NCBI GenBank assembly: GCA_903871875.1
Contig: CAIQIR010000137.1
Coordinates: 62,001-126,000 of the forward strand
Length of the DNA stretch: 64,000 bases
Source of the DNA: an uncultured Schlesneria sp.
GTDB lineage: Bacteria; Planctomycetota; Planctomycetia; Planctomycetales; Planctomycetaceae
Direction: 5' to 3'
This document shows positions 48,171 to 50,929 of this stretch, piece by piece. Under the pieces are notes generated by a model that saw only the letters and a program-made list of their open reading frames with translations, did no database searches and was not told the origin of the DNA. The first letter of the stretch is position 1; the number at the start of each line of letters is the position of its first letter. A program made the position numbers and the translations under genes.

Positions 48171-49673
48171 TTACGGTTTCGCCGGTCGCTCGTAAGTAAA
48201 AGGAAACGGACGCAGTTGGTCGGAACACAGAAATAATCGCACGGTCCGAAAGGGGCGACCGCCCCGCGTCATCTGAATCGGCGGCAGCGGCGTGATTTCG
48301 CGGAAATAGGGTTCATAGATCTGCGTCAGCCCTGCTTGCTGATCCGCGTCCAGCAAGATGCCATCTTGTCCCAGCCAGTCTTCGGGACGACTCCAGAACG
48401 CGAAGCCGCGGGCATCCCCCTGACGATAACAGGCCACGGGAATGTGATTGCGACACGCGAAGGCAATCTGGCCGCTGTCGAACCAATGATTGGTGAAGAG
48501 AAACGTCTTGGGGCGATCGACGAAGCCACGTGTTTGTAACTCGGCGGCAACCGATTCCCAGCCACTGATCTCGATGCAGGGATCTCGAAACGGAAGTGGG
48601 ACCAGACCGAATCGCGCTTGGACCAGAAACGCGCCGGCGACTGCAATCAGAAAGGTTGTCATGAAGACCAGCCAGCGTTTGACGATCAGCGGTTCGCGGA
48701 TCGACCGCTCGGCCCAATTCGCCCCCAGCAGTGGAAACAACGGCAGAAATCCGATCAACGGCCAATGAGGCAACAAGGGGCGAGTTAGCGACACGGCCGT
48801 AAACAGCCCCAGTGGCACCAGCGACTGGCACAACAGCAATCGATCATTACCGGTCGCGGTGCGGAACGAGCGCCCCCGGCTGACCAGGATGACCGCCAGC
48901 GAATACCAGATCCAGGGAAACAGCAGCGCCATCGGACCGAAGAACATGACGGCCAGTCCGCCCAGTTGAATTTTTCCACCCATCGCTCGTGCCGTCTGAA
49001 ATCCGAACGAGGCCCAATCGTGCTGTACGTTCCAGATCAGCACCGGGACCAGCCCCAGGAATCCAATCGCGGCCGCCAGATACGGACCGGGTGTCAGCAG
49101 CAGAAAGCGGGCCGACGGCGTCACAATGATGTAGGCCAGGGCGCCCAACGGCAGAAACACCGCGTGATACTTGCTTAGCATCGCTCCGGCACAGGCCAGT
49201 CCCACTCCGATCCAGGGAACGGTCCGACCGGGCGAAGCGATCAGCGCTTCACTGAGTCGCCACATCGTCAGCAAGGCGAAAAACAACAGCGGCCCATCGG
49301 GCAAGACGAATGCCCCGGCGGCCGCCGTGTAATAGGCACTGAGGTTCAGCGCCAGGGCGGCATAAAAACCGGCGGATTCACCGTACCAGCGGGACGTCCA
49401 GCGAAACAGGATCCAGGTCGAACCGGCAAACAGCAGCACAAATCCCAGCCGGATCGAGAGCGGATGCAGCCACCCGCCGCAGGCCGCGATCCCCAACTGA
49501 GTGATATACCGCAACATCGGTGGATGATCGAAGTAACTCCAATCGGGATGGACGGAGTACAAGAAGTGATACGCTTCGTCCTGACCGGTTTCGAGACTGG
49601 CCGCCCAGCCCAGACGCACCACCAGCGTCACCAGGATCAAGAGGATCAGATTGCGGCGGGGACGACTGAACAC
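48171..49673 (-). CDS. Family-39 glycosyltransferase (ArnT/PMT-like membrane protein)
   Basis: A 500-residue polytopic membrane protein with about ten helices. The first periplasmic loop has the GT39 signature, with acidic catalytic residues in GQDEAYHFLYS and the DWSYFDHPPMLRY motif. Family members move a sugar from a polyprenyl-phosphate donor to lipid or protein on the outer face of the membrane. The start is a GTG at 49673. It lies 47 bp after the phosphatase-barstar gene on the same strand. Acceptor and sugar are unknown. Confidence 0.88.
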   Translation of the reverse strand: MFSRPRRNLILLILVTLVVRLGWAASLETGQDEAYHFLYSVHPDWSYFDHPPMLRYITQLGIAACGGWLHPLSIRLGFVLLFAGSTWILFRWTSRWYGESAGFYAALALNLSAYYTAAAGAFVLPDGPLLFFALLTMWRLSEALIASPGRTVPWIGVGLACAGAMLSKYHAVFLPLGALAYIIVTPSARFLLLTPGPYLAAAIGFLGLVPVLIWNVQHDWASFGFQTARAMGGKIQLGGLAVMFFGPMALLFPWIWYSLAVILVSRGRSFRTATGNDRLLLCQSLVPLGLFTAVSLTRPLLPHWPLIGFLPLFPLLGANWAERSIREPLIVKRWLVFMTTFLIAVAGAFLVQARFGLVPLPFRDPCIEISGWESVAAELQTRGFVDRPKTFLFTNHWFDSGQIAFACRNHIPVACYRQGDARGFAFWSRPEDWLGQDGILLDADQQAGLTQIYEPYFREITPLPPIQMTRGGRPFRTVRLFLCSDQLRPFPFTYERPAKP

Positions 49674-49720: not shown

Positions 49721-50929
49721 TCAGTCCAAGACCAATTCCACTCCGTCGCTGGATTCGCAGCCGCCGGGACCATGCACCTGGATTAATTCCATCAACCAGT
49801 CAAAAATCGTCGAGCCACGACCGTGTTGGGCCAGGGTCAGATCATGCTCGATGGACGCGCGATTCGAGGGATGACAGCGATCCAGATTCTTTTCGAGCTG
49901 CCGCGCGGTCTCGGGATACCCAAACCGCTCGCGTGAGATCGCCGAATTCTTCCACCGCAGCAGAAAGCCGCCCTTCGGCGTGCCAAAACCACCTCGCAAC
50001 AGATCGTTGAAGGCGTTCATGTTGCGGCCCCAGTCGACACCGGGCACCAGCACGCGACTGATTTCCTCGAAGAACTCGTCCAGCGTACTGAAGTTGGCAC
50101 CGTCGATTTCGTAGGTCTTGCGCAGGATTCGCAGCACGACATCCTTCAAGCCGGGAACGACCGAGATGCCATTTCCGCCATAGATCGTTGGTTCGCCATT
50201 CCAATCGACGAACTGCCCGCCCGCTTCCTCGACGATCGGCAACAGGGCCGCGGCATCCCAGGCATTCATCGCCGGGTCGACCATCACATCGGCTCGGCCG
50301 GTGGCGACCAGCATATGTCCGTAACAGTCGCCCCAACCCCGCGCCAACTGCACCGAACTCAATAGCGTTTCAAAGGCCTCGCGATGGCCCATCGCAAACC
50401 AGCGCGCCGCATTTGTGGTACTGAAGGTCGCTTCGGCCAGAGTTGTGACTGACGACACCTGCACGCGACGCGGCTCCTGATCGCCGATTTGCCACCACGC
50501 GCCGCTACCGCGCGCCGCATAGACCACTTCGTGCAGCGCCGGAAAGCGAACGACGCCGATCACACATTTTGTGTCGTATTCGACGCCGATCAGCGTTCCG
50601 AACAGCGGCACGCCATGCACGAACGATTTTGTGCCGTCGATCGGGTCGATGATCCAGCGAAAGCCGGTCGTCCCCTCGTGATCGGGAAATTCTTCACCCA
50701 GGATCGCGTCTTGGGGAAATGACACGGATAACCGCTCGCGAATCATCAGCTCGGTTCGTTTGTCCGCTTCGGTGACAGGGCTCAGATCGCGTTTACGTTC
50801 CACGACAAGATCGGCCGTCTGGTAATAGCCCAGGATCAGTTCACTGGCCTCCCGCGCAACGGTCAGGGCGAAGTCCAGACGCGAAGACAGTTCTTCAGCG
50901 GGCAAGTCAGCAAGGGGTGTCGTCGTCAC
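49721..50929 (-). CDS. Inositol monophosphatase-family enzyme fused to a barstar domain
   Basis: A 402-residue fusion from a GTG at 50929 (a TTG start at 51055 would add residues without protein character). Residues 1-268 are a lithium-sensitive inositol-monophosphatase/histidinol-phosphatase domain: GEEF near 79, DPIDGT at 95-100 and NAWDAAAL with Asp225, all metal ligands. Residues 271-402 are a barstar-like RNase-inhibitor domain: YEIDGANFSTLDEFFEEI, GRNMNAFNDLLRGGFG and the C-terminal extension CHPSNRAS...FDWLMELI found in bacterial barstars. The two are in one frame with no stop. A possible internal start for barstar lies at 50137. The GT39 gene follows. Confidence 0.88.
   Translation of the reverse strand: MTTTPLADLPAEELSSRLDFALTVAREASELILGYYQTADLVVERKRDLSPVTEADKRTELMIRERLSVSFPQDAILGEEFPDHEGTTGFRWIIDPIDGTKSFVHGVPLFGTLIGVEYDTKCVIGVVRFPALHEVVYAARGSGAWWQIGDQEPRRVQVSSVTTLAEATFSTTNAARWFAMGHREAFETLLSSVQLARGWGDCYGHMLVATGRADVMVDPAMNAWDAAALLPIVEEAGGQFVDWNGEPTIYGGNGISVVPGLKDVVLRILRKTYEIDGANFSTLDEFFEEISRVLVPGVDWGRNMNAFNDLLRGGFGTPKGGFLLRWKNSAISRERFGYPETARQLEKNLDRCHPSNRASIEHDLTLAQHGRGSTIFDWLMELIQVHGPGGCESSDGVELVLD

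Follow-up and report, generated by a model that had tools for sequence, protein, structure and literature searches.

The window analysed here is a 64,000-nucleotide stretch of DNA from an uncultured Schlesneria sp. of the Planctomycetaceae (assembly GCA_903871875.1, contig CAIQIR010000137.1, positions 62,001 to 126,000). At 49721..50929 on its minus strand, a single gene joins a HisN-type histidinol-phosphatase to a barstar, a ribonuclease (RNase) inhibitor domain. From a comparison of 170 genomes of the family, 15 of them Schlesneria, it is quite probable that the barstar part still functions while carried by HisN, and that in the cytoplasm it inhibits the only RNase Sa-type enzyme of the genome, the gene for which is found behind histidine biosynthesis genes.

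Domain composition and conservation of the fusion

The fusion frame comprises 402 codons from a GTG start with no internal stop, and a possible upstream TTG would lengthen it to 51055. The plus strand is closed across the same interval. A reading of this DNA made from the letters only had claimed that one uninterrupted frame joins the phosphatase to the barstar; the claim holds for the 402-residue window protein and for eight further Schlesneria proteins, which are likewise in frame and share 67–76% identity with it. The same in-frame fusion in nine genomes rules out an assembly or sequencing artefact. When the architecture was searched for in planctomycetes, as had also been suggested, the fusion was present in nine of the 15 genomes of the genus, and orthologues are thus not always encoded as two genes.

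The phosphatase domain (50126..50929, minus strand, residues 1–268) matches the Pfam family Inositol_P (PF00459) at residues 15–259 with an E-value of 3e-48, and passes the curated equivalog cut-off of the NCBIfam model for histidinol-phosphatase HisN (TIGR02067, 287.5 bits against 275.15). The metal-site motifs of the inositol-phosphatase fold, GEE, DPIDGT and WDAAA, are invariant among the nine aligned fusion orthologues, in agreement with the inositol-monophosphatase/HisN domain with complete metal motifs that had been described earlier. A structural model of low confidence best matched the histidinol-phosphate phosphatases of M. tuberculosis (PDB: 5yht and 5zon, 36–38% identity). In none of the 15 Schlesneria genomes did a HisJ- or HisB-type phosphatase give a match above cut-off. 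Since both models score below their cut-offs, HisN is probably the sole histidinol-phosphatase of these cells, and the fused enzyme is presumably active.

The barstar domain (49724..50125, minus strand, residues 269–402) is 134 residues in length and includes a long C-terminal extension. Residues 271–350 match the Pfam family Barstar (PF01337) with an E-value of 4e-7 and 30.4 bits, the gathering cut-off being 23.4. A profile of the fused barstar matched solved barstars at an E-value of 0.001, and a single-sequence search of the PDB gave no match. The extension, CHPSNRAS...FDWLMELI, had been recognised together with the barstar fold in the sequence-only reading; free genes of the same long form exist in Streptomyces, in a few further planctomycetes and in Rhizobium, where the identity is 55%. 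Residue D309 of the fusion protein aligns with the key barstar residue Asp39, in a column (D41 of the alignment) that is invariant in 12 of 12 sequences, and the W, N, A and ND positions around it are kept in fused and free long-form copies. The equivalent of Asp35, the first acid of a DxxxD motif, is N in the window protein and in genome G140, S in G135, and D in the six other fused copies. A structure prediction of the full fusion was of low confidence, with a mean predicted local distance difference test score (pLDDT) of 54.7; the barstar part scored about 60–91 over most blocks.

The junction, RILRKTYEIDG, is free of any linker. The last helix of HisN passes straight into the first strand of the barstar, and the barstar portion begins exactly at the start point of its free long-form relatives. 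An ATG at the junction, which would provide an internal start for a free barstar, is absent from all nine fusion genes. A linker-free junction is expected if a stop codon between neighbouring genes was lost, and the fusion might on that account be a harmless read-through product with a non-functional barstar. There is only a very slim chance of this, and conservation already disfavours it: among close pairs, the ratio of nonsynonymous to synonymous substitution rates (dN/dS) is about 0.08–0.14 for the barstar part and 0.04–0.06 for the HisN part, and none of the nine copies is truncated. Both domains are under purifying selection, with the barstar part evolving faster than HisN.

When HisN, HisG and HisI sequences were concatenated, with HisI included only for genomes where it was recovered, the resulting tree placed the nine fusion genomes on one side of a branch with support of 99/96. 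The RNase tree agrees on this clade (support 95/94), and the HisN tree on its own does not resolve it. Although HisN was matched in 169 of the 170 family genomes, the barstar fusion is absent from the 155 outside the genus, where phosphatase matches end about where the phosphatase domain ends. One match, in G084, reached residue 336 and was rejected as a chance extension, as a stop is present and no barstar was matched. A scan of 392 genomes of the phylum with the barstar alignment found no HisN fusion, only free or fragmentary copies and weak matches, and three-frame translation downstream of unfused hisN genes revealed no remnant barstar.

The probable partner RNase and its position behind histidine genes

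That no nuclease is recognisable near the fusion, as had been stated from the sequence, is true locally and extends to the flanks examined here. However, the genome does encode an RNase of the family PF00545, on a different contig (C68, the fusion being on C137). There is exactly one such RNase in each of 14 of the 15 Schlesneria genomes, including all nine with the fusion, and in all nine the two genes are unlinked, so that they nowhere form a neighbour pair. The putative partner RNase scores 51.3 bits against PF00545 (RNase Sa/barnase), for which the cut-off is 24, and resembles RNase Sa both in sequence (profile E-value of 5e-21 to Sa3) and in fold. Its catalytic residues E128, R143 and H158 are invariant in 13 of 13 aligned rows. 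Near the amino terminus the protein has one predicted hydrophobic helix, which is followed by a linker of low complexity and, at the C-terminus, the RNase Sa-like domain. The predicted topology is a membrane anchor with the catalytic domain outside.

In all nine fusion genomes the RNase gene is located directly behind hisI-hisG on the same strand, the identities of HisG and HisI being confirmed by NCBIfam. The distance from the hisG stop to the RNase is 25–57 bp in seven of these genomes; in G142 it is -47 if the earliest start is used, and in G137 the RNase gene is broken by a contig end just past hisG, and another contig starts inside it. In the five RNase-bearing Schlesneria genomes that are unfused, hisG and the RNase are on different contigs, and no hisG was found within the examined flanks of the RNase loci of other genera. 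The clade in which the RNase adjoins two histidine genes is therefore the very one whose HisN bears the putative inhibitor.

A further proposal is that histidine biosynthesis has captured both components. The RNase would be read through from hisI-hisG, the inhibitor would be fixed to HisN, co-expression of the pathway would replace gene linkage as the source of balance, and histidine demand would set the RNase level. This proposal is tentative and has somewhat less than an even chance of being correct.

The gene that follows the fusion at 48171..49673, 47 bp downstream on the same strand, encodes a PMT_2-type glycosyltransferase (PF13231). It follows the fusion gene in all nine genomes and is part of the syntenic context only.

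Barstar types in Schlesneria and in the family

The distribution of barstars within the genus is complementary. In G136, G138 and G139 an ordinary barstar gene adjoins the RNase, and a barstar search found no long form. Such RNase-adjacent barstars, which also occur in many other genera of the family, are related and about 36–51% identical to one another. In G141 and G143 there is no RNase-adjacent barstar, and a free long-form barstar is present on another contig. The nine fusion genomes also lack an adjacent barstar and have the long form on HisN; in eight of them no other barstar is recognisable. All 11 genomes without an adjacent barstar thus carry the long form, in nine as part of the HisN fusion and in two as a free, unlinked gene. 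No Schlesneria genome has both types and no RNase-bearing genome has neither. The only genome of the genus without the RNase, G147, is also the only one of the 15 without any barstar.

The RNase flanks are common to G139, G141 and G143, and a stretch of about 0.4 kb with the adjacent barstar is missing from the latter two. In G141 (L119), a few hundred bases about 100–500 bp past the RNase stop are unmatched in G139 and are possibly an inserted repeat; they occupy the place of the adjacent barstar of G139.

Across the 170 family genomes, 31 have both RNase and barstar, 3 the RNase only, 19 a barstar only and 117 neither (Fisher p 1.3e-17); with Schlesneria removed the counts are 17, 3, 19 and 116 in the same order (p 3.3e-10), and neither p-value takes account of shared ancestry. 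Among the three RNase-only genomes is G010, with a completeness of only 66%.

The 19 genomes with a barstar and no PF00545 RNase would also fit a different role, in which the fused domain guards against the barnase-type toxins of competitors and the fusion to HisN just ensures its expression. Barstars serve as immunity proteins of polymorphic Tox-Barnase toxins according to PMC3482391. In addition, the long-form barstars on the Rhizobium and Streptomyces plasmids examined are near no obvious RNase, and a second barstar of the window genome resembles one that is linked to an Rhs-type toxin in G056. This role is nevertheless unlikely, as it leaves unexplained why the 11 genomes without an adjacent barstar have the long form, why the three with the adjacent type lack it, and why the genome without the RNase is also without a barstar.

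Less likely still is that the barstar fold has been repurposed to regulate or oligomerise HisN and has given up RNase binding. Incomplete conservation at one of the two contact-acid positions of classical barstars and the faster evolution of the barstar part are both in keeping with such a change. On the other hand, the Asp39 equivalent and the conserved positions near it are kept across fused and free copies, the free copies of G141 and G143 accompany the same RNase unfused, and HisN is as a rule unfused in the other 155 family genomes.

The history of the long form may have involved either acquisition or differential loss. Both are compatible with the barstar tree, which does not resolve the fused copies as one clade (31/48) and neither supports nor rejects a single clade of fused and free Schlesneria long-form copies (approximately unbiased test, p-AU 0.18).

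No nuclease was recognised near the free long-form barstars of G141, G143, G038, Rhizobium and two Streptomyces plasmids. The closest long-form barstar found outside the planctomycetes, on plasmid CP050516.1 of Rhizobium leguminosarum (L208:965-5393), comes after genes annotated as a sigma-54 regulator, an RNA-binding protein and RtcB, in what looks like an RNA-repair operon. In G050 (L177:4818-5924), a protein with ankyrin repeats and a C-terminal barstar domain is probably a composite immunity protein.

A proposed mechanism and its relation to known systems

Genes for a toxin and its inhibitor are usually side by side, because a cell that lost only the inhibitor would be expected to suffer. 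With an inhibitory role for the fused barstar as the preferred reading, we infer the following order of events. The ancestor would have had the RNase with its own barstar gene adjoining, as in most relatives. In one Schlesneria clade, where the RNase directly follows hisI-hisG, the adjacent barstar would have been lost, and a barstar of a different kind, the long form, would have been joined to the C-terminus of HisN. HisN would then keep the cytosol constantly supplied with inhibitor, so that RNase molecules would be neutralised before they are exported or while they are; the inhibitor itself would remain in the cytosol, where by analogy with barnase and barstar it would shield cellular RNA. 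Because both genes ride on histidine-biosynthesis genes, RNase and inhibitor would be expected to be made together although the genes are far apart, and their regulation may be shared. The sequence-only reading had guessed at a tie to RNase control or a bifunctional immunity protein. The direction was right, but a matching RNase elsewhere in the genome, its place behind hisI-hisG in exactly the fusion genomes and the RNase-adjacent barstar of close relatives were out of sight of that reading.

Several observations weigh against this account. The Asp35 equivalent is not conserved. Binding and inhibition of the RNase by the fused barstar are proposed from genomic co-occurrence and complementarity. 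Since all nine genomes form one clade, to which both the fusion and the histidine linkage map, their coincidence is one evolutionary observation and not nine. No motif shared between the regions upstream of the fusion and of the RNase loci was found, the result being like that for shuffles, and a search of Rfam identified no known RNA regulator, only a tRNA. Long-form barstars exist elsewhere without a PF00545 RNase, for example in G038, and the second, unlinked barstar of the window genome (G000:C104; L074:7616-8017) could serve in place of the fused one. No RNase was found beside this second gene, and the G056 barstar that it resembles (L187) adjoins an Rhs-type RNase toxin.

The closest known systems are the barnase-barstar pair of Bacillus amyloliquefaciens and the RNase Sa-barstar complex, solved in the PDB as 1ay7. 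Like the present system, both combine a small RNase of the guanyl type, carrying an E/R/H triad, with an inhibitor of the barstar fold; the enzyme is extracellular and the inhibitor intracellular (PMC8625414), as is also predicted here. What differs here is that the two genes lie apart, that a biosynthetic enzyme carries the inhibitor, and that the RNase has a predicted membrane anchor and is encoded behind hisI-hisG. The RNase-barstar neighbour pairs of the family (for example in G008, G079, G092, G136, G138 and G139) have a related anchored RNase, but their barstars belong to another subfamily and are encoded by a separate gene beside it.

In G003 (L175:5191-7964) and G004 (L176:3957-6733), a barstar-fusion gene overlaps the anchored RNase gene. 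The G003 protein is 610 residues in length, with an N-terminal barstar and a remainder that is weakly glycosyltransferase-like. This is a second, independent barstar fusion accompanying the same RNase type, and again the barstar is part of a larger, possibly enzymatic protein; it differs in having the barstar at the N-terminus, a partner other than HisN and the RNase gene next to it.

Polymorphic toxin systems likewise have immunity domains in composite proteins, although in the passages of PMC3482391 consulted these domains or repeats are joined to each other and not to an enzyme of amino-acid biosynthesis. This was the one paper found that mentions both barstar and planctomycetes, and the same passages do not describe a HisN-barstar fusion. 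Within the open-access literature, to which the search was confined, no fusion of barstar to a biosynthetic enzyme with the likely target RNase behind genes of the same pathway was found, nor any paper that mentions both barstar and histidinol. The three components, barstar, RNase Sa-type enzyme and HisN, each belong to a known family.

A single genus presents four states: a linked inhibitor, a linked inhibitor that is absent, a free unlinked substitute, and a substitute joined to a housekeeping enzyme. Schlesneria thus makes it testable how a toxin-inhibitor pair separates and what then maintains the balance. If the preferred reading is true, the fusion would be a direct physical link between an enzyme of amino-acid biosynthesis and the control of an RNase.
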